Below are positions 1-26,266 of a stretch of DNA of 26,266 nt, piece by piece. This DNA is from a virus: the IMG/VR virus record IMGVR_UViG_3300025512_000027, positions 1 to 26,266 of that record; one strand, given 5' to 3'. Each line of letters opens with the position of its first letter. Positions within the stretch are counted from its first letter, which is position 1. The notes beneath the pieces were generated by a model. That model was given only the letters and a program-made list of their open reading frames with translations, was not told where the DNA came from and did not search any database. The position numbers and the translations under genes are program-made.

Positions 1-3000
1 GCGGTAATTCCCGCCGCGAAAACAGTCTTTGAACTTTGTTTTGGTTCCTGCCGTTCCGACCCGGGTGAACACGCCTTCGCTTCCGCCTCGTATCATGTCA
101 TCTTCCACCGATGCTCCAGTCATCCTCATTCCGGCCATGAAGCGGTTATTGCTCGCCATCAGACCACCTTGGGTAATCCTGACAACATCTGCAGCAGATT
201 GAACCCCGGTCCAAACATACCGCAAGCCGGCATCCTCGTAGGCCCTGATAAGTTCTTCTGATTCGTTGACGTATGTCGAATACCCGTTGAATACTTGTTT
301 CAGCTTCATGTTGTTGACCTGTGCGGCATTGATGCCTTCTTCTCTTAGTATTACATCTATTTTATCCATTTGTTGCGTTGCAGTCAACTTCTGCAGCTCC
401 ACCATGCGAGCGGGGGCATGTTGCCAGCCAAGCCTTATTTTTTTGAACAACAGTTCTTCCGCTGCCGTCGGGGTCTTGGTGAGCTCGCCCAGCCCGACCC
501 GCTCCAGTGTCTGTGCCATGTTTCTGGCGTCTACCTGTGTGCTAACGCCAGAACTTTGAACGCGCACCCTGAAGAATCCGCGCCAGCCACTATATTGCTT
601 TGTCTGCCCATCGATGTACATCTCAAATGAGCTTGTTGAATCTCGCAACACAATGCTACGAAGCGGGACAGATGCGTTTGTCTTGTTTCCAGCAGAAAAT
701 AGCTTCCGCGTGTCGTCCGCCGCTTCAAAAAATATTTCTTCGATAGTCCCCGTCGGTTTCAACCGGTTCCAGGTCGCAGACCAAGTCTCATATGTCAGTT
801 TGCCGGTAATTTCATAGTAGTCTGTACCGTCGATGTTCATGCGCCTGGCGGTTAGATTCATACCTTCAAGGAGCGGCCCATCGCTCCGCACAGATATTCC
901 GATGCGGCCCTCCGGCACCACAGCCAGATCCGAGAATATGTCCGTTGCGTTCGCTGTCGCTTTTTCTTTTGCCGAGTTTGCCGGCGCAGCTTTCCTTGCT
1001 GCTCTGGCCGCCGCCAGGCGGTCACGCACCTGGGCGCTTATCCCCGGCGCTTTTACCGGATCAGATATGCTGGTGATGAGCTGGCCTTTGTTCATGTTCA
1101 GATAATACGGTATCTGCTTCTGCTTCGCCAGCTGCTTGAGCTCGGCAATGCTCATCTTGCTGAGCATCTCGGGAGTGTGCAACACGCCCGCCAGCGGCTG
1201 CTTCATATGTGCCGCTGTTTCATCCGCCCAAGCGAACACCTGTTTCTTGCCGGTTTTTACTGTCAAAAGGTCGCAAAAGAATTCGCGGTATGCTTCACGC
1301 AGGCCCATTTTTCTGTCTACGATCTGGTCAAGGAGCGCCTCTGCAGCTTGTCCTTTGCCGTGTATCCCTTCGGCGTAGCCTCTGAATATCTCGCGATACG
1401 ACACATCCGGTATGGATTCTACGCGCTTAATATATGTCAATGTATCCTGTAGGTTGAGGTCAATGTCACCCTTGGCAAAACGTTTAAATATCGTGTTGTA
1501 GATCGGCTCCGTCTCGCCGTATACGGCATTCGGGTGATATGCATAGCTCATTTTTTTAGAGCCTGCCTGGGTGATATAGCGGAAGGCCTGGTCTTTGTCC
1601 AAGCCTAACAGCCGGCCTGCATCGTCGATAAGAAATTGGCCGCCATGCGCATCGAAGTTGCCGATCAGCCAATCTGTCACGTGCTCCCGCTGGAACTGCG
1701 CCGCCATCCCCGGAGGTAGCGGGTCTTGCGCATATTGCCACGACTTGAAGTTAATCTGGTCTTTGCCAAGCGGTATGCGCTTCTGCAACGTCCCGAATTT
1801 TCCGCCCACCGTCCCTACTGCCATCGGCATCGCTGTTTCAGGATTGACTATGCCCTGAATTTTGTATCCGGCTTCCTGCACGTAAGCTCTGAACGCCTCC
1901 GGGACACCGGCCTTGGTCTGTGCGGGCTTGAAAAGCCATTCTATGCCGGCAGCGTCTTCATACAAATGCATCTCACCGGTCCCGCCAAGGTTTGTCCGGC
2001 CCTTGTATTTCAGGTTTTGCGGCATCGCAACCGTATTCGGTATTGCCGGGAGCGGCGGTTCCGGTAACTGCGGCTGCCCTGGGCTCCACTCATCGAGCGT
2101 TTCCGGCTCTGATGTTGCGAGATATTGCGGCGGTTCAATTTCTTCATACGCCACGGCGCAACGGCAGCGCGGATGTGCCGGCGGGGTCTGCTTATGTCCT
2201 TCGTAGAGTGTTTTGCCCGGAAAGTCAAAGTCCGCATCCATTTCGAGTTGTACGCCGTCAAGCGGCCCACATGTCTGGCATACCCGCTCATCATCTGCCG
2301 TGCTCCAGACCTTGACCATCTTACCCATCAGATTCTGCTCCTGCGACTGCTTTATCCCTTCGTGAGCACCTTTGTTATAGGCAAACGACATCTCTGTTGT
2401 CGCAATCATGTATGCCCTCTGCCGGTGCTGCCTGGCCGCATAGCGCAGTGCCGCATCTCGTGCTTTCTTCTCGGCTGTCGCCTCCCTCATGCCGGGGTTG
2501 TTTTTAAGCAGGCTTGCTTTCACGTGTTTGTAGTAGTTGACATTCGCCTTGGCCTGGATATGATTTAGCCCGATGGCTGGCCTGATTGCCCGCGAAAGTT
2601 CATCAACCGTGAAGTCGCCGGCGAAGGTCTTGTCGAGCATGGCTGCAATCGCTTCGCGCTGCTCATCCGCTATTGCTGTTGCCCAGTGCGCCCCGCGCCC
2701 GGCTGTCCACTTTCTAACGCCCTCCGCCATCGGGTCAAAGAAATAATCCGGGTGCTGCGCCATGAGGTGAGCGTTTGCTGCTTCCATCGCCTGGTGCCAG
2801 ATGGGTTTTAGGTGCTCGTTTACAAAGTTAGCATAATCAAGCTGCCAGGCTTGCAGTGTTTTTTCATCCAGGAAGCCGTTTTGTATCGCTTCCCGCAGCT
2901 GCTTGTATGTGACGGCCTTCTGTTGATTATTCCAGAGCCGCGTCAGGAAGAATACCGGCTCTGGTTCTGCGGCGTTAAGATAGCTGTTTAGCCTTGTCAA

Positions 3001-3084
3001 TACAGCCCGGGCCTTCCCGCCCTTCGCCTTGCTTACGGCGCGGCGGCGATGCATAAAGTTCAAGTATTTCAGAGCCACCACCAT
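1..3084 (-). CDS. MuF-type minor head protein with kinase-like and further C-terminal domains (partial, runs off the left edge)
   Basis: The frame is open for 1028 codons and has no stop before base 1, so the C-terminus is missing. It starts at an ATG overlapping the portal stop (TGATG), with GGGGAGG 8 nt upstream. Residues ~1-315 are an SPP1 gp7/MuF head-morphogenesis domain ending in the usual cysteine pattern (C269xxC272, then HPRCRC with C307 and C309). A Pro-rich linker (~318-350) leads to a kinase-like region (~355-600): a strand with FKPAQ, the loop NFDAHGGQ (D478, H480) and GLDKDQAF (D496). Residues ~640-675 (MSIAELKQLAKQKQIPYY...) resemble a Rho-N/SAP-like helical domain. After an unassigned region, residues ~955 onward (YVWTGV...GGLMAS...GGSEGVFTRV) vaguely recall the core of ADP-ribosyltransferase folds. 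MuF proteins occupy the portal vertex inside the capsid and can carry C-terminal toxins. The MuF call is firm, the kinase call good, and the ART-like call tentative. Confidence 0.88.
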   Translation of the reverse strand, partial: MVVALKYLNFMHRRRAVSKAKGGKARAVLTRLNSYLNAAEPEPVFFLTRLWNNQQKAVTYKQLREAIQNGFLDEKTLQAWQLDYANFVNEHLKPIWHQAMEAANAHLMAQHPDYFFDPMAEGVRKWTAGRGAHWATAIADEQREAIAAMLDKTFAGDFTVDELSRAIRPAIGLNHIQAKANVNYYKHVKASLLKNNPGMREATAEKKARDAALRYAARQHRQRAYMIATTEMSFAYNKGAHEGIKQSQEQNLMGKMVKVWSTADDERVCQTCGPLDGVQLEMDADFDFPGKTLYEGHKQTPPAHPRCRCAVAYEEIEPPQYLATSEPETLDEWSPGQPQLPEPPLPAIPNTVAMPQNLKYKGRTNLGGTGEMHLYEDAAGIEWLFKPAQTKAGVPEAFRAYVQEAGYKIQGIVNPETAMPMAVGTVGGKFGTLQKRIPLGKDQINFKSWQYAQDPLPPGMAAQFQREHVTDWLIGNFDAHGGQFLIDDAGRLLGLDKDQAFRYITQAGSKKMSYAYHPNAVYGETEPIYNTIFKRFAKGDIDLNLQDTLTYIKRVESIPDVSYREIFRGYAEGIHGKGQAAEALLDQIVDRKMGLREAYREFFCDLLTVKTGKKQVFAWADETAAHMKQPLAGVLHTPEMLSKMSIAELKQLAKQKQIPYYLNMNKGQLITSISDPVKAPGISAQVRDRLAAARAARKAAPANSAKEKATANATDIFSDLAVVPEGRIGISVRSDGPLLEGMNLTARRMNIDGTDYYEITGKLTYETWSATWNRLKPTGTIEEIFFEAADDTRKLFSAGNKTNASVPLRSIVLRDSTSSFEMYIDGQTKQYSGWRGFFRVRVQSSGVSTQVDARNMAQTLERVGLGELTKTPTAAEELLFKKIRLGWQHAPARMVELQKLTATQQMDKIDVILREEGINAAQVNNMKLKQVFNGYSTYVNESEELIRAYEDAGLRYVWTGVQSAADVVRITQGGLMASNNRFMAGMRMTGASVEDDMIRGGSEGVFTRVGTAGTKTKFKDCFRGGNYR

Positions 3085-4418: not shown

Positions 4419-4508
4419 TATTTTCTCACCTCGTTTTCCGGCTTGTCCTGGATATACAACCATTCTATATTTAATCCTCACCCTTCCGCACCATATCGGC
4501 GTAGACGG

Positions 4509-4550
4509 TAATAGGGTACCAGTAATAGGGTACCAGTAATAGGGTACCAG
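4509..4550. repeat. Three perfect tandem copies of a 14-bp unit containing GGTACC
   Basis: The unit TAATAGGGTACCAG is repeated three times head to tail at 4509-4522, 4523-4536 and 4537-4550 with no mismatch. It lies in the ~200-bp non-coding gap between terL and the portal gene. Two degenerate copies (GGGTACCAG and GGGTTCCAG) occur in the same orientation inside the replisome-organizer gene at 16751-16780. In both places the repeat block is followed by GGCTT and a row of 11-bp repeats. Confidence 0.95.
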
Positions 4551-16312: not shown

Positions 16313-17261
16313 TGTCGCTTTCGTACCACGCTCGCTTAAAGCCATTGAGCTTCGGCTCTCCGGCATTCTCGGGTGGTCGCTCATCGGTGACATTCCGCTC
16401 AAAACCTCTGCCATGCTTTGCAGTGCCATTTATTTCAACCTCCCCGTATTCATCTTCCCAGCGCCCCTGGTTGAGCCAAGTTGCCGGGTTTGGTATATAC
16501 CGTCCTCCTTCACGCTGCCATTGTTCGGTGACTCGTGCCCTCCCGATGGCTGTCATAATCCGGTCGTAAAGCTCCGCATCCGGCTTTATCTTCTTCCAGG
16601 ACGATTCCGCCGCTTTTTTCCCGACCTTCTTCGGGTAAGCCTTCCAGAACTCATCAAACCGTCTCTCCAGGATTGGCTTCTTTGGCTCCGGTGGCTTCAC
16701 CCCTGGCCCACCAGCCTCCTCGCTTTGCGGGTTACCCGTAGTGGGTGAAAGGGTACCAGTAGAAGGTAATAGGGTTCCAGTAATAGGCGCGGCTTGTTCT
16801 GTGTTTGCCTGGTGCATGTATGGTGCATGTATGGTGTTTTGCTCGTCCCCTGTGTCATCCGAGGTCGCGGAGTGGTGCACAGGCTTCCCGCTACCTGCTC
16901 CGTCGGCCATTTCAACCGTTAGGCTCTCGCCCGGTGAGGGGATTTCGCTCGCCTTTTCCTTGATGTGTGGATTTTGATGCTTGCTAAAATTCACCACCTG
17001 GATGTATTGCTCTCCATCTGTTGTGTATCTGTATATGAACCCAGCGTCGTGCAATGCCTGAAGCATTTTATCTGCGCCGTCGGCATCCACGTCGTCATAT
17101 CCCAATAACGCCTTTTTTATCCTTCTTGGCCTGTCCTGCAGGCGCCCTTCCCTGTCCGCTATGCACCATAACCCTATGAATAAAAGTCGGGTCAATGGTG
17201 GAAGGTCGCCGATGATGTCGTTGTCAAAAAATCCAGGCTTAATGCTCCGCGTTCGTGCCAT
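16302..17261 (-). CDS. Phage replisome organizer / replication initiator (DnaD-like type)
   Basis: A 319-residue protein. The N-terminal ~100 residues (SIKPGFFDNDIIGDLPPLTR, LWCIADREGRLQDRPRRIKK) match the winged-helix replication initiators of Bacillota phages. The middle (~105-195) is a low-complexity Pro/Thr/Ser linker, and the C-terminal domain contains FDEFWKAYPKKVGKKAAESSW (~202-222) and YIPNPATWLNQGRWEDEY, phrases typical of this family. Its usual role is to bind the phage origin and recruit the DnaC-like loader encoded next. The linker codons (residues ~141-171) coincide with the 11-bp and GGTACC repeats, so the origin probably lies inside the gene. GGGGTGAG precedes the ATG. The stop region overlaps the loader gene start. 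Confidence 0.87.
   Translation of the reverse strand: MARTRSIKPGFFDNDIIGDLPPLTRLLFIGLWCIADREGRLQDRPRRIKKALLGYDDVDADGADKMLQALHDAGFIYRYTTDGEQYIQVVNFSKHQNPHIKEKASEIPSPGESLTVEMADGAGSGKPVHHSATSDDTGDEQNTIHAPYMHQANTEQAAPITGTLLPSTGTLSPTTGNPQSEEAGGPGVKPPEPKKPILERRFDEFWKAYPKKVGKKAAESSWKKIKPDAELYDRIMTAIGRARVTEQWQREGGRYIPNPATWLNQGRWEDEYGEVEINGTAKHGRGFERNVTDERPPENAGEPKLNGFKRAWYESDNEE
16751..16839. repeat. Origin-like repeat cluster inside the replisome-organizer gene
   Basis: On the plus strand the block holds GGGTACCAG (16751-16759) and GGGTTCCAG (16772-16780), then GGCTT (16791-16795) and four consecutive 11-mers: GTTCTGTGTTT, GCCTGGTGCAT, GTATGGTGCAT and GTATGGTGTTT (16796-16839). Element types, order, orientation and the GGCTT junction are the same as at 4509-4613. 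In the protein this stretch encodes a flexible linker, so the DNA can be constrained by binding. Phage origins lying inside the initiator gene (lambda O, SPP1 gene 38) are well known. Origin function here is inference. Confidence 0.75.
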
Positions 17262-17293: not shown

Positions 17294-17995
17294 TCAGCAG
17301 ACGTACACTTCCGCCCCGGTGAGTTTCTGCACCTCTTCTTTGTAACGGTTCTCGTCGCTGTTGTTGTCGCTCAAATGCAAGAGGTATATTTGCCTCACTT
17401 TTCGAAGGTCATTTGCCCGGAGCAAGTCCAGAAAATGCTCCAAGCTCATGTGGCTCTTCATCAATCGCGGCACCAGTTCAAGCGGTATGTACCCTGCGTC
17501 CACGCTCCTCTGCAGGCTGTCCTTGTCGTAGTTGCACTCTCCCATGATGTGGGTCAGCCCCTGAAAGCGGTACTTGATGTAATAGGTATCCGTGAAATAT
17601 AAGAGCTTTTCTCCCGTCTCCGTGGAGGTGAAAAGGAATCCGAGCGGCTCCGGCACGTCATGCTCGACGTCGAACGGCAGGATTTGAAATGTTCCGACCG
17701 TTATCTCCTCCAGCGCCTTTACGGCGTGTATCCGGTGCCCTGTGAGCTTACAGGCGGCGATTGTGCCCTGTGAGGTATAAATGTCCACCCCAAGCCTTGC
17801 AAGCTCTTTGGCGGCTTTACTGTGGTCATTGTGCGCATGTGACACAAAGCAGCCCCTTATTTGCGTCACCTTAAACTGGCACCCGACCTGTATCGCCTTA
17901 AGCGGGATTCCCGCGTCCAGCAGCAGGCTGGTCTTGCCGTCGCTTATATGATAGGCATTTCCTTTGCTGCCGGACGCGAGTACCGTTATCTGCAT
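17294..17995 (-). CDS. MBL-fold metallo-hydrolase (YycJ/WalJ-like), probable phage nuclease
   Basis: A 233-residue metallo-beta-lactamase-fold protein. Metal ligands are visible: SHAHNDH (H53, H55, D57, H58), H112 in FDVEHDVPEP, D136 in YFTDTYY, and H207 in LLHLSDNNSDE, the last being characteristic of the YycJ/WalJ branch of DNA-processing enzymes. Its ATG overlaps the recT stop (TGATG), and it is followed by the replication initiator. A RecT annealing protein needs 3'- or 5'-ended single strands, and no RecE/lambda-exo gene is seen, so this enzyme and the Rad50-like ATPase may provide the resection. That role is inferred from context. Confidence 0.85.
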   Translation of the reverse strand: MQITVLASGSKGNAYHISDGKTSLLLDAGIPLKAIQVGCQFKVTQIRGCFVSHAHNDHSKAAKELARLGVDIYTSQGTIAACKLTGHRIHAVKALEEITVGTFQILPFDVEHDVPEPLGFLFTSTETGEKLLYFTDTYYIKYRFQGLTHIMGECNYDKDSLQRSVDAGYIPLELVPRLMKSHMSLEHFLDLLRANDLRKVRQIYLLHLSDNNSDENRYKEEVQKLTGAEVYVC

Positions 17996-19080
17996 CAGAA
18001 GCTCGGCCCAGCTGGGGTTGTCGCTGCCGGAGCCGCTTCGGCAGGTTTCCCTGAAGCAATAACCTCGCCGGTTTCGGCATCTACATTGGGTGGCGGTAGT
18101 GGTAGCTTTCTTTGCGGCTGCGGCGTTGTGTCAATGATGATTGCGTTGGCGTTGACCTCGATTTCCGCCTGAGCCTCCATCTCCGCATAGCGAGCCTCTC
18201 TCATGCGCATGTATTGGTAGTTGTCGTCGATTTTTTTCGGGTCGCGGGGTATGTGCTTTGCACTGTAAGTCTCGCGCTTTAATGTTTTGAGGCACATCTC
18301 TTCAAACCAGCCTTCTGATTCCTGCTCCACCTGTTTTCCGTTCTCCCAAACCTTAACCTTGCCGCCCCAGAACTCCGCAGCCGCATATTTTGGCTTGCGC
18401 TTCTCGATCTCCTTGATCGTCATGATGATAAGCTTGTTCTTAACCGGGTCTGTGTACTCGATGTATCCGAAGCCCCCGACGACCGCCCCTCTGTCAAAGG
18501 CGTTGTTAATCTCGAAATCGTACCCTTCGACCTTGTTGTCCTTGCTCTTTTTGATGGGGCGGAATGTATCCGTCGAGTAGACCAGCTCGATGGTAACCGC
18601 CAGTGGCTGCTCGACCGCGTACTTCTCAGCGATGTACTTGATGCCGTTGTATCCGGGCATCAGGGTGATGTCGTACTTGTTGGTCTTGTTATTTTTGTAA
18701 GGGATGGGCGAGAGGTGGTTGTCCTGCATCATGTCGAGCCCCATCCTCGCGTAGTGAACTACGTCGAGGGCTAAGTCGTTGAGGTTGACGTTCGCCCAGA
18801 CGACCGGCAGGGGGTTATCGTATTTGTGGTCTTTGTTGTTCTCGTTCTTGCGGATTCGCGCTTCCTCTGCCATCTTCAGAGCGCGGTCAATGCTGATGAA
18901 GTATCCCTGGATAAGCTGGCGCTGGTAGTCGGTGACCTGGAGCGCTCCGGCGACGTTGCTGCCGAACTCTCGGAGCACCTGGTTGGTGAAACGCTCGCTC
19001 ATTGCGAGGGTCTGGTTTTCTGCAGGCTGCAGGGCCGCATCGTTTTGGGTTGCCGCCTGTTTCTGTGTATTTGTTGCCAT
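17995..19080 (-). CDS. recT: RecT-family single-strand annealing protein
   Basis: A 361-residue RecT protein, which coats single-stranded DNA and anneals it to complementary strands during phage recombination. Family phrases include LNDLALDVVHYARMGLD (~101-117), HLSPIPYKNNKTNKYDITLM, GYNGIKYIAEKYAV, and the C-terminal half with KIDDNYQYMRMREARYAEME. The last ~50 residues are a Pro/Ala-rich tail. A textbook AAGGAGG site precedes the ATG. It sits between the DGR-type variable protein and the MBL hydrolase, so the classic ATPase-RecT-MBL order is interrupted only by the variable-protein gene. Confidence 0.93.
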   Translation of the reverse strand: MATNTQKQAATQNDAALQPAENQTLAMSERFTNQVLREFGSNVAGALQVTDYQRQLIQGYFISIDRALKMAEEARIRKNENNKDHKYDNPLPVVWANVNLNDLALDVVHYARMGLDMMQDNHLSPIPYKNNKTNKYDITLMPGYNGIKYIAEKYAVEQPLAVTIELVYSTDTFRPIKKSKDNKVEGYDFEINNAFDRGAVVGGFGYIEYTDPVKNKLIIMTIKEIEKRKPKYAAAEFWGGKVKVWENGKQVEQESEGWFEEMCLKTLKRETYSAKHIPRDPKKIDDNYQYMRMREARYAEMEAQAEIEVNANAIIIDTTPQPQRKLPLPPPNVDAETGEVIASGKPAEAAPAATTPAGPSF

Positions 19081-19127: not shown

Positions 19128-19154
19128 ATCAGGGTGCCTGAAAAGCACCCTGAT
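19128..19154. other. Perfect 10-bp hairpin downstream of the variable region
   Basis: ATCAGGGTGC (19128-19137) pairs perfectly with GCACCCTGAT (19145-19154) around a 7-nt loop. It lies ~62 bp after the stop codon of the DGR-type variable protein and before recT. On the minus strand it is followed by GGAAAAAT, not a T run, so it is a poor intrinsic terminator for the operon. Hairpins or cruciforms just downstream of variable regions are known to help retrohoming in diversity-generating retroelements, although usually closer to the stop. An mRNA-processing or partial terminator role is possible. Confidence 0.6.
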
Positions 19155-19216
19155 TTGTTGAACCGTTTGCACGTTCCTTCTGCCGAGCATTTTCCAGATT
19201 ATCAGGATTCCAGATA

Positions 19217-20158
19217 TCAGATACCCGGAATGAAAGCGGAGCGGAAGCCGAAGTGCGCGAGCACATTCGACCGAAAGACGCCAGCCAAGGAAAACACACC
19301 CGCATCGACGCCGCCGTCCCAATTGCCGCCGCGGAAACCGAGGCGTTCACCTTCGGTATCCACCCAGAAGTAACCGTCCACCTTCTCGTCGTCCGCCTGG
19401 TAAAGCGCCAGGGCTTTCAAAAGGTCGGGAACCTCCAGCCCATCCGCTTGCAGGTCTCTGAAATAGCAGCCGTCCCAGCCGCATCTGGGCTTCTTGGTCG
19501 TGAGGACAATCCTGCCGGTGCTGACCTTGTACTTGATGGTCTTGTCGCCGATTCTGACCGGCTCCCATGCTGCGCTGTCTTTGCTCTGGTCGGCTCCTGC
19601 CGCCGCGTTGTTGTCGGGGATTATCTGGAGTTCACCGTCTACCCAGCGCACTCCGCCCACCCATTCGAACAGGTTTCCGTTAAGGTCGTGAATTCCGTCT
19701 GGGGTGTGGTCATGCGTCCATGTTGCGGGGCCGCTGCCCGTGAGCGTCCGGTACCCGTCGTATGTGATACCCTGCTCCTCCGGGTGCGCGTAGTCCCTGC
19801 CTCTGTTGTTGTTGCCGTGGGGCAGGGTGCCGTTCTTTTTCGCCCAGAGGGCTAATGCCGCCCATTCGGCGTTGGTCATCAGGTGCCAGCCCGGGCCTTT
19901 GGCCTCGCAGGCGGTGACCGCCTCGTCAAAGCTGATTGTGTCCTTCGGCTCCTGAAGTTGGGCGCTATATGCCCTGCCGTCAATGACGATGTTCTGGTAT
20001 TTGGAAATCCAGACTTCGTTTATCTCCTTGCCGCCCACCATGAAGGCGGGGTGCGGAGTGTCCGGTGCTCCGGCAATCACCTCTGAAAGGTTGAATTTCG
20101 GAACCGGCACCATTATGCTGGGTCTTCCAGCATTGTCGTAGATGAGCTCGTTTTCCAT
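19217..20158 (-). CDS. Variable protein with formylglycine-generating-enzyme/C-type-lectin fold (diversity-generating-retroelement target type)
   Basis: A 313-residue protein from ATG 20158 (AGGAGG seven bases upstream). The N-terminus (~1-40) is a short lead-in, then the FGE/CLec-fold domain: VWISKYQNI, DTISFDEAVTACEAKGPGWH, MTNAEWAALALWAKKNGTLP, GIHDLNGNLFEWVGG, and the C-terminal 40 residues from GFRGGNWDGG to HFGFRSAFIPGI. These phrases are those of targets of diversity-generating retroelements, in which the C-terminal lectin face is varied by a reverse transcriptase copying a template repeat. Catalytic cysteines of true sulfatase-activating FGEs are not apparent. It sits between the Rad50-like ATPase and recT, an odd place for a display or receptor-binding protein. 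Regulation is through the early operon. Confidence 0.85.
   Translation of the reverse strand: MENELIYDNAGRPSIMVPVPKFNLSEVIAGAPDTPHPAFMVGGKEINEVWISKYQNIVIDGRAYSAQLQEPKDTISFDEAVTACEAKGPGWHLMTNAEWAALALWAKKNGTLPHGNNNRGRDYAHPEEQGITYDGYRTLTGSGPATWTHDHTPDGIHDLNGNLFEWVGGVRWVDGELQIIPDNNAAAGADQSKDSAAWEPVRIGDKTIKYKVSTGRIVLTTKKPRCGWDGCYFRDLQADGLEVPDLLKALALYQADDEKVDGYFWVDTEGERLGFRGGNWDGGVDAGVFSLAGVFRSNVLAHFGFRSAFIPGI
19220..19339 (-). other. Candidate DGR variable region (VR)
   Basis: The last 40 codons encode GFRGGNW, then DGG-VD, AGV and VLAHF at the positions that vary in DGR lectin-fold proteins, closing with GFRSAF. Candidate variable codons are mostly NNC (GAC, GGC, GTC, GGC, GTC, CTC, CAC, TTC), which is what adenine mutagenesis of AAC template codons would leave. 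No second, adenine-rich copy (template repeat) and no reverse transcriptase are visible in the window. Confidence 0.65.
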
Positions 20159-20180: not shown

Positions 20181-22151
20181 TTATGCCACCTCCAGCCGCA
20201 GGGCTTTGTCCTGCCCGGAAACCACCAGACGTATTACCTGGGTGTCCATTTGTATGAGCCTGGTCACGCTCTCCGCGTTGTCAACAAAAACCGGCATTGT
20301 CAGGTTCCAGTGGTGGGAGAGAGTGTCGATAATCTCCAACCCCGCGTTAATCCTCGCGGCGTTATTGGCAAAGGTGAAGGGTACCATTCGACCGCCTTCG
20401 GTCGGTATCATGACTTCGCAGTCTTCTTTGATCCCGCCGTTCTGCTGCTCAATAAAAAGCCGGAACCGGACGCTCTGGAACTTGCTGTTAATGCGCTCTG
20501 TAAGGAGATTGACTTTTGCCTTGATGAAAAGCTCGCAGAGGTAAATTCCTTGCTCCAGCGCTTCGTACTGCCGCGAGAGGTCTTTTTCTCTCGCCTTCAG
20601 TTCGTTTATGCGCTCCTGCTGGCCGGCCGCTATCCTGAAGTTGGCCTTGATGTTCTCCTGTTTGCGTGTTTCGTCGTACAAGGCTTGGATTCTGCTCGTG
20701 AAGCCCGAGGCGATTGCCTCTGTCTTCTTGTCCGTGTCGCTCTCTTCGTCGCGGTATGCGGCAATCCGGGCGGCAATCTGGGCATATTCTGCGGTCGCCT
20801 CGAAAGGCGCCGGTGTTTGAAGCCGATTCTGCAGAGCGACTATCTGCTGATCGTAGTCCTCGGCAATCCGCTCGTTATCCTTGATTTGGTCTTTGAGCCC
20901 CTTTATCTTAGAGTTCTGCTCCTCGATCATCTCCTTGCTGGCTTCCTTCTTGCCCTGCTGGTTGATTTTTTCGAGTCTCCGGCTCTTCTGCAGGTTGAAA
21001 GCCTCGCGGAGCCTCTGAACTTCTTCTTCCGGTAGCGTCCGGTGGCAGGTCGGGCAGGTTTCGTTCCCTTCGTCCCATGTCTCCTTCAGGATTGCCATGT
21101 AATCACTAAGGAGGCTTTCCCGGTGGCTGTTCAGCCTTTCAACATGTCGCTGCGTCCTCTCTAAGTCGTTTTTTGCGTCCTGCAGGCGGTTCCTTGCGGT
21201 GATCTGCTCCTTTTTCAAGGCGTTTATTGCCGTGTACGTGCCTTCGTTCAGGCTACTGGCCTTGATGGCATGTGCCGCCCTGGCTTCCGCTAGCTCGGTG
21301 TTCGCCTCGGCTATCTGGTTCCTGATGGTCGCCGCAGCAAGGTTGCCGCTCAACGCCTGCGCCTTTTCGATCTCCAGCTCCTCTTTCTGCTTGGTGAGGT
21401 CTTTAATTTTGCGGTCGATGGCGCTCTGGTCTATCCCTGAAATGTCCGGCATGGCTCTCTGGGCCTCGTCGATTCTGCCGGGGATGTCCTGAAGCTGCTT
21501 GTTAATGTCGCCCTTCTTGGCTCCAGCTATCTTCTTGTACTCGTCCACCGTGTAGTGCTGGTTGGTGGTTCCGGGCATAAGAAGGTAGGTTGGAAGCTCT
21601 TTAAGCTCCGGGGTACTGCTGATTACATCACTGTCAGAAACATCGCCGCAAATCTCCAGGAGTATCTTCCTCCGGGTCTCCCAAGTCATTTCTTCCGGGA
21701 AGTAGCTTGGCATGGTGAGCATTTTCATCTTCTCGGCGCTACCGCAGAAGGCGAGCATGGTCGCCTGGTATTCCTTCTCGTTGCTTGGTACTCCGTCGAT
21801 GTAGTAATCCGTTGTGTGGCCGTCGAATTCGTCCACATTGGAGCCGCGCTTCTTTTTGTAGTTCTCGTGGAATACCTTCCGCAGTACCACTATGCGGCCA
21901 TTATCGAGGCTGAGTGTAGCTTCTGCGGCATGGTCTAGGTGGTGCAGATCTCCATCCGGGCCTTTGGTCTTCGGGGTGAAGTTTTTTGCTCCGGTGCTGG
22001 CCTTGTCGAACAAGAGCCAAGTCATGGCGTTGAATATCGTTGTCTTGCCTGTGGCATTGTCGCCGTAAATGCTGGCGCTCTTTCCGCCGAACTGAAACTC
22101 TTCCGCTTTCAATCCCTGAAAGTTTTCAAGCTTGAGTGTGAGTAGCTTCAT
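20181..22151 (-). CDS. Rad50/SbcC-like ATPase with zinc hook
   Basis: A 656-residue SMC-type ATPase. The N-terminal lobe begins MKLLTLKLENFQGLKAEEF and has Walker A GDNATGKTT (30-38). Long heptad-rich coiled coils flank a zinc hook, CPTC (C366, C369), near the middle. The C-terminal lobe has FANNAARINAGLEIID (signature-like, ~594-609) and Walker B VFVDNAE (621-627) followed by VIRLVVSGQD. Rad50/SbcC proteins tether DNA ends and control a partner nuclease. The classic SbcD/Mre11 is absent, so the MBL hydrolase of the same operon is the most likely partner. It is shorter than cellular Rad50/SbcC (~1000 residues), as usual for phage versions. Confidence 0.9.
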   Translation of the reverse strand: MKLLTLKLENFQGLKAEEFQFGGKSASIYGDNATGKTTIFNAMTWLLFDKASTGAKNFTPKTKGPDGDLHHLDHAAEATLSLDNGRIVVLRKVFHENYKKKRGSNVDEFDGHTTDYYIDGVPSNEKEYQATMLAFCGSAEKMKMLTMPSYFPEEMTWETRRKILLEICGDVSDSDVISSTPELKELPTYLLMPGTTNQHYTVDEYKKIAGAKKGDINKQLQDIPGRIDEAQRAMPDISGIDQSAIDRKIKDLTKQKEELEIEKAQALSGNLAAATIRNQIAEANTELAEARAAHAIKASSLNEGTYTAINALKKEQITARNRLQDAKNDLERTQRHVERLNSHRESLLSDYMAILKETWDEGNETCPTCHRTLPEEEVQRLREAFNLQKSRRLEKINQQGKKEASKEMIEEQNSKIKGLKDQIKDNERIAEDYDQQIVALQNRLQTPAPFEATAEYAQIAARIAAYRDEESDTDKKTEAIASGFTSRIQALYDETRKQENIKANFRIAAGQQERINELKAREKDLSRQYEALEQGIYLCELFIKAKVNLLTERINSKFQSVRFRLFIEQQNGGIKEDCEVMIPTEGGRMVPFTFANNAARINAGLEIIDTLSHHWNLTMPVFVDNAESVTRLIQMDTQVIRLVVSGQDKALRLEVA

Positions 22152-25123: not shown

Positions 25124-26266
25124 TTGCCTGCGTATAAATATAAAACTAAAAGCGGCGCCACAAAATGGTATGCGGCCTTCTGGTATACTGACTGGACTGG
25201 AAAGAAACGAAAAAAGAAAAAGGAGGGCTTCGATAAAAAAGGGGGTGCGCAGGCGTTCGAGCGTGAGTTCCTGCTCAAAAATAGCCGTAGCTGTGATATG
25301 TCTTTTACATCCTTGGCCGAGCTCTACCGCACAGACGCGGAGCATCGTGTTCGTGAGGGGACACGCGAAACGCAGAACTCCATCATAGACAAGTGGTTAC
25401 TCCCTTGCTTCGGCGAGCTTCAGGTCAACGAAATTGACGCTGTGACAATCCGCACATGGCAGAATGAGGTCATGTCCGCTATCAACCTGCGCACCAGCAA
25501 AAAGTACTCCGATACCTATATTCGCACCATCAACAGCCGCCTCTCGGCGATCTTTAATTATGCAGTGATGTACTATGGCTTGAAGCAAAATCCATGCCGG
25601 CTAGCTGGCTTCATGGGAAAGAAAAAGGCAGGGAAGATGAAGTTCTGGACGCTGGATGAGTTCAATTTGACAATGGCGCAGGTGTCAAACTGGAGCTTTC
25701 GGGTCGCCTTTCAGATCATGTACTGGCTCGGTTTCCGGGAGGGAGAGTGCCTCGCCTTGCAGCCCGCCGATATCCTTCCGTCGAAAGTAGCCCGTGTTGA
25801 AAAGACTCATCACCGGCGTAAAGGCGAGGATACAAACGGTCCTCCCAAAACCGAAAACAGTTACCGCGATACTTCGATGCCTGATTTTCTATACGATGAA
25901 ATCCATCGGTACATTGATGCCCTGTATGATATTCAGGAGAATGACCGGATATTTTATTTCCAAAAGGGGACGCTGGGACGCGCACTCACCGAAGCGGCCA
26001 AGGCGGCAGGCGTGAAGCGTATCCGCGTCCATGATCTCCGGCATTCACATGCCGCTCTGCTGGTCGAGCTCGGTTATAGCATTGTCGCCGTGGCGGAGCG
26101 CTTGGGTGATACGGTAGAGGTTGCCATGTCCACCTATTCCCATCTGTACCCAAACAAAATGGAGGCGATCGCAACCGATTTGAACCGGCAGAGCGAGGTT
26201 AAAAACAAAGCCCCCGATTCTGTCGTTTTGGAGCTTGAAAAGATCGAAAAAGACCATAAAAATTGA
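25124..26266 (+). CDS. int: Tyrosine-type site-specific integrase
   Basis: A 380-residue integrase starting at TTG 25124, with GGGGGAGGTG seven bases upstream. An AP2-like arm-binding N-terminus (YKTKSGATKWYAAFWYTDWT) and a SAM-like core-binding domain (~59-165) precede the catalytic domain. Active-site residues seen are R205 (GFREGE), K242 (PPKTENSYRD), H303 and R306 (HDLRHSH), and nucleophile Y338 (STYSHLYP). At the usual H/W position the protein has LGD (D329) instead of LGH. It integrates and, with an excisionase, excises the phage. The stop codon is the last three bases of the window, so attP or attR, usually just beyond int, is not included. Confidence 0.95.
   Translation: MPAYKYKTKSGATKWYAAFWYTDWTGKKRKKKKEGFDKKGGAQAFEREFLLKNSRSCDMSFTSLAELYRTDAEHRVREGTRETQNSIIDKWLLPCFGELQVNEIDAVTIRTWQNEVMSAINLRTSKKYSDTYIRTINSRLSAIFNYAVMYYGLKQNPCRLAGFMGKKKAGKMKFWTLDEFNLTMAQVSNWSFRVAFQIMYWLGFREGECLALQPADILPSKVARVEKTHHRRKGEDTNGPPKTENSYRDTSMPDFLYDEIHRYIDALYDIQENDRIFYFQKGTLGRALTEAAKAAGVKRIRVHDLRHSHAALLVELGYSIVAVAERLGDTVEVAMSTYSHLYPNKMEAIATDLNRQSEVKNKAPDSVVLELEKIEKDHKN

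Follow-up and report, generated by a model that had tools for sequence, protein, structure and literature searches.

The window, by which we mean the whole 26,266-base stretch of viral DNA analysed (IMG/VR record IMGVR_UViG_3300025512_000027), carries on its minus strand a gene for a DGR variable protein (VP) of the early type at 19217..20158 (313 aa). The start is probably the ATG at 20158, which has an AGGAGG RBS ahead of it; the longest ORF runs from 20176. In sequence searches the product hits the T. aquaticus DGR variable protein 5vf4 (phmmer, E 8.6e-57) and PHROG_2889 (profile match, E 1e-115). PDB 5VF4 is TaqVP, the variable protein of a Thermus aquaticus prophage DGR (PMC6328139). An AlphaFold model of the window VP (pLDDT 95.6, pTM 0.94) was matched by Foldseek to 5vf4 with TM 0.94 and E 1.6e-38, which predicts the CLec/FGE fold of a DGR target and bears out an earlier note, made from the sequence, that had called the gene a DGR variable protein with a lectin fold. 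As in TaqVP, the fold takes in nearly the whole protein and the variable region (VR) is C-terminal. The assignment of VR residues to the binding face is carried over from the TaqVP paper (PMC6328139). However, the DGR genes of TaqVP are adjacent to it in one cassette, whereas the window VP is shorter, lies in an early operon and appears to be diversified from afar. No further domain is evident in the window VP.

Also as the earlier note had it, the gene lies between Rad50-like and RecT genes. It begins 22 bases beyond the end of an SbcC/Rad50-like ATPase gene (20181..22151, minus strand; PHROG_77, E 9e-69; Pfam AAA_23 and Rad50_zn_hook) and is followed by a RecT-family annealing protein gene (17995..19080, minus strand; Pfam RecT, E 3.4e-9; PHROG_148, E 7e-12) and, in the same operon, a gene for a metallo-beta-lactamase-fold (MBL) hydrolase (17294..17995, minus strand; PHROG_392, E 7e-76). 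A tyrosine integrase gene occupies the right end of the record (25124..26266, plus strand; Pfam Phage_integrase and Phage_int_SAM_3). At the left end, after portal and terminase genes, the record truncates a Mu-F-like head-morphogenesis gene (1..3084, minus strand; open-ended ORF; Pfam Phage_Mu_F, E 1.7e-11). Repeats based on GGGTACCAGTAATAGG were also observed at 4500-4543 and 16737-16787, two sites 12 kb apart.

Neither a reverse transcriptase (RT) nor a template repeat (TR) is found within the 26,266 bases, in agreement with the earlier note, and no tail genes were seen in this linear fragment. The reverse TRANSCRIPTASE and TR are absent because the fragment ends inside the head gene, without the tail module. 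Since the record has no tail genes, their absence is uninformative about the whole phage, and we expect the tail module and DGR cassette to lie beyond the head-morphogenesis gene, outside the record.

An exchangeable slot among early genes

Early VP genes, so labelled for their position away from a TR and their gene neighbourhood, occur in two kinds of surroundings. The first consists of early recombination genes (SbcC, RecT, DnaQ-type exonuclease, ERF, SSB). In the Faecalibacterium phage FP_Lagaffe, for example, the early VP gene and an exonuclease gene overlap, ahead of Gam, ERF and SSB; an 8-nt overlap between VP and exonuclease genes is shared by five phages (FP_Lagaffe, L007, L209, L210 and L213). 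The second is found in Mu-like genomes, where the VP gene lies between a GemA-containing early block and an amidase gene. None of the early-type relatives examined has its early VP gene in the tail module.

With the window RecT as query we collected 36 loci, and the SbcC-RecT interval was measurable in 29. Only one interval (L325, the L001 phage) contains a VP gene; the other 28 measure 30-794 bases, and small ORFs of other kinds occupy many of them. One contig (L320) has a tail DGR (L013), yet no VP in its SbcC-RecT slot. This presence or absence within a conserved operon is that of an accessory, moron-like gene and, together with the other small ORFs, indicates that the VP is an optional gene of an exchangeable slot.

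The neighbouring genes raise the possibility that the early VP is an accessory of the phage recombination machinery (Rad50-like, RecT), diversified to bind DNA-processing factors. SbcC and RecT flank it in the window and exonuclease and ERF genes accompany it elsewhere. However, 28 of the 29 SbcC-RecT-MBL operons do without a VP and the slot holds other small genes, while in Mu-like phages the VP is near GemA and amidase genes instead. We therefore rejected a functional tie to Rad50 and RecT, and this explanation is the least probable of those considered here.

One template and two variable regions

The window VR (110 nt, 19235..19344, minus strand) was delimited by alignment to the TR of a sister contig (L042), which has a tail VP, an Avd-like ORF, a TR and an RT. 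In a gapped alignment the VR differs from this TR at 12 positions, all of them TR adenines, with 0 other mismatches; for this single VR-TR pair the chance of 12/12 is 0.25^12, or ~6e-8. The gap is one 3-nt deletion in CAACAAC, which leaves the VR one codon shorter, and an ungapped search of relatives' records misses the pairing. The tail VR of L042 differs from the same TR at 19 adenine sites and 0 others. Codon changes in the window VR are AAC>GGC, AAT>GAT, AAT>GCT, AAC>GTC, AAC>CTC, ACG>GCG, AAC>CAC and ATC>TTC, with one AAC lost. The earlier description of the variable codons as nearly all NNC was thus roughly right, NNY being more exact.

The near-identical repeat differing at template adenines that the earlier note had proposed to look for is therefore present in the sister contig. 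The RT and avd gene were likewise found in relatives rather than in the window: no part of a complete cassette (RT, TR, usually Avd) is in the window fragment, and cassettes are present in L042 and in G001, the genome of the L001 phage. We also searched IMG/VR for a near-identical strain of the window gene with an exact 30-mer and found none. The comparison suggests that the window VR was written from a TR of the L042 type; this falls just short of proving in-trans action for the window, as the template comes from a sister contig. The suggestion that the gene is an orphan without an active DGR finds no support, since wherever the TR of L042 has a base other than adenine the VR agrees with it. 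As a separate observation, VRs one codon short at the tandem AAC stretch compared with related TRs occur both in the window (19235-19344) and in L015/L016, which suggests slippage in reverse transcription.

Relatives provide the step that the window does not. Across 11 other early VRs compared with a TR from the same phage or a sister, 141 mismatches are at adenine sites and 1 is not, although not all 11 are independent (sister pairs L003/L007, L183/L209 and L218/L219). In L007 the gene order is tail VP, Avd-like ORF, TR, RT, amidase, recombinase, repressor, early VP, exonuclease, and its single TR (2399-2515) differs from the tail VR at 15 adenine sites and 0 others and from the early VR at 13 and 1, the two VRs being unlike each other. 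In the isolated phage FP_Lagaffe the corresponding counts are 13/0 for the tail VR and 11/0 for the early VR, and in its relative L209 the early VR gives 18/0. Further comparisons of early VR and TR gave 14/0 (L113), 12/0 (L111 with the L136 TR, one contig), 10/0 (L217/L247), 9/0 (L218/L256), 10/0 (L219/L129), 20/0 (L112/L114, one MAG) and 16/0 (L004 with the L045/L048 TR). Both VPs and one TR are carried by L007, L113, L111/L136, L217/L247, L218/L256 and FP_Lagaffe, so in several relatives the early VP is diversified in trans by the TR of the same phage. Looser two-VP cases are Dulem virus 37 (16/4) and two Oscillospiraceae-family genomes (9/1 and 12/2).

Of the two possibilities that the earlier note had left, these genomes favour a retroelement elsewhere in the phage acting in trans, and the L042 TR extends this to the window. 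A retroelement encoded by the host or a helper is unneeded, as several relatives hold all parts in one phage or prophage. One comparison counts against this reading. In G001, the nearest relative with both VPs, the early VR (L001:3358-3468) fits the L177 TR in blocks only, with 12 adenine-site and 9 other mismatches, as if it were a mosaic derived in part from an older TR.

A separate lineage and its downstream repeats

In a tree of the non-VR bodies, a supported branch (99*) divides 16 early VPs from 90 TR-adjacent VPs (root unfixed; 60 unlabelled rows lie outside this count), which sets the early lineage apart. All aligned early VPs, that of the window included, are without the roughly 16-24 N-terminal residues of tail VPs, and the middle insert of tail VPs is also missing from all of them. 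The window VP thus has neither the N-terminal segment of a tail or receptor-binding VP nor its setting, a tail-module gene followed by TR and RT. Lagaffe-type early VPs run on for ~100 residues past the VR, an extension that the window VP does not have.

Two further groups of VP-like genes were observed. Those in L162 (8550-10984), L165, L168, L169, L170, L173 and L174, from Lachnospiraceae/Eubacterium, have no TR within reach and group near the early VPs on a long branch, with a tandem pair in L162; they are possibly another family of remote DGR targets. L262 and L263 (8711-10915) carry a tandem VP gene pair on large contigs (65 and 149 kb).

The early VP could also be an orphan or decaying duplicate, kept only because DGR homing overwrites its VR, and its accessory distribution and the missing codon in the window VR would fit such a history. 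However, pairwise dN/dS (NG86) of the VP body is ~0.04-0.4, and ~0.06-0.08 in the window/L001 and L004/L111 pairs, which largely refutes decay. In the VR, by comparison, dN is 0.17-0.37 and dS falls as low as 0 (L183/L209: dN 0.26, dS 0). The early VP therefore has a body under purifying selection and a hypervariable VR, as measured from substitutions in these pairs. The reading frames are open, without stops, and the distinct lineage is maintained across unrelated phages. We consider a decaying duplicate very unlikely.

Directly 3' of the window VR lies an (A)ATCTG repeat element (19195..19222, minus strand), a candidate cis-acting DGR target signal. ATCTG occurs within 70 bases 3' of the VR in 16 of 17 early and 71 of 89 TR-adjacent VPs, usually in at least 2 copies, against shuffle means of 1.2 (early) and 6.5 (TR-adjacent) motifs in all. 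AATCTG follows none of 87 TRs. In Bordetella phage BPP-1, whose DGR shows the same adenine-specific transfer from TR to VR, there into the trimeric tail-fibre protein Mtd, a signal 3' of the VR likewise marks the target, and this signal is a required hairpin close to the VR (PMC3240598). Our hairpin scan found a strong hairpin 3' of 68 of 93 TR-adjacent VRs and 6 of 16 early VRs; the other 10 early VRs are without one, and nearly all early VRs have ATCTG. The repeats therefore mark targets more consistently than hairpins do, and we rejected a GC-rich hairpin as a universal target signal. A role for the ATCTG repeats in homing can be inferred from this distribution. The window itself has a 10-bp hairpin ~80 nt 3' of the VR (19128..19154, minus strand), whose 7-nt loop does not match the GRNA consensus of PMC3240598; it may be terminator-like or a distant form of the DGR hairpin.

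A proposed second target of the tail DGR

We propose, with a probability of roughly 60%, that the phage's own tail DGR has the window VP as its second target and that this VP is an early, non-virion, diversifiable binder. The tail VP, Avd, TR and RT would lie in the tail module beyond this fragment, and the DGR would write TR cDNA with mutated adenines into VRs at the 3' ends of two genes, those of the tail receptor-binding VP and of a shorter early paralogue several to tens of kilobases off. Targets would be recognized by the invariant VR core and the downstream (A)ATCTG repeats, which are missing from the TR. The early VP, a distinct lineage without the tail-type N-terminus and an accessory gene of exchangeable early-operon slots, would serve as a fast-evolving binder in the infected cell, with ligands such as a host defence factor, a competing phage or the receptor bound by the tail VP.

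From the gene position, the missing tail-type N-terminus and the C-terminal extension of the Lagaffe group we infer that the gene is expressed early, that its product stays out of the virion and that it acts as a binder within the infected cell. An intracellular binding role is plausible. Early accessory slots of phages often carry anti-defence or exclusion genes, which makes such roles plausible for the early VP as well. More tentatively, one tail DGR could maintain two binder libraries, one for receptor binding by the virion and the other for an early, cytoplasmic effector that works like an antibody against fast-changing intracellular targets (host defence proteins, rival phage factors), with targets picked by the ATCTG repeats and not by the BPP-1 hairpin. 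Residues at AAY codons do not differ in spectrum between early and tail VRs (p 0.64). We thus rejected a distinct residue spectrum in early VRs, and there is no sign of a separate ligand class for the early VP.

The main rival is that the early VP is a second receptor-binding protein in the virion, so that the DGR doubles host-range adaptability. Both VPs have the same fold and TR, no other domain in the window VP points to another site, and this is how the second VR has been read in Lagaffe_CP, where both VRs are in MTD-like proteins, vary with adenine bias among 18 cognate genomes and have a suggested use in host range (PMC11792537). Against it, the early VP gene is never in the tail module among the early-type relatives examined and often overlaps early recombination genes; the protein has no tail-type N-terminal segment; and in Lagaffe-type early VPs ~100 residues follow the VR. 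We regard a second virion binder as possible but doubtful, and favour the early non-virion binder.

FP_Lagaffe resembles the present case in that a single TR and RT go with a tail VP and a further MTD-like VP. The available part of one report describes its DGR with a single target (PMC5883640), and the second VR has since been published; the words "early", "operon" and "exonuclease" are missing from the text of PMC11792537. In the available part of that paper, Roseburia phage Shimadzu and CP11/Lelie also have one DGR and two target genes, although the Lelie and CP11 targets are DUF6273, another family than the VP here. We found no description of the early-operon VP class, its lineage, the missing N-terminus or the repeat element in the open-licence literature, where the class and the repeat element are apparently undescribed.

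As FP_Lagaffe has been isolated and has the same layout, the question of what the early VP does is directly testable. Early targets that have ATCTG repeats and no hairpin likewise make in-trans DGR target choice testable, and a rule for that choice bears on DGR-based directed evolution. Phage DGRs have been interpreted almost exclusively as a means of switching cell-surface receptors. A conserved early-slot VP lineage with the same TR suggests that phages also diversify a protein of cell takeover.
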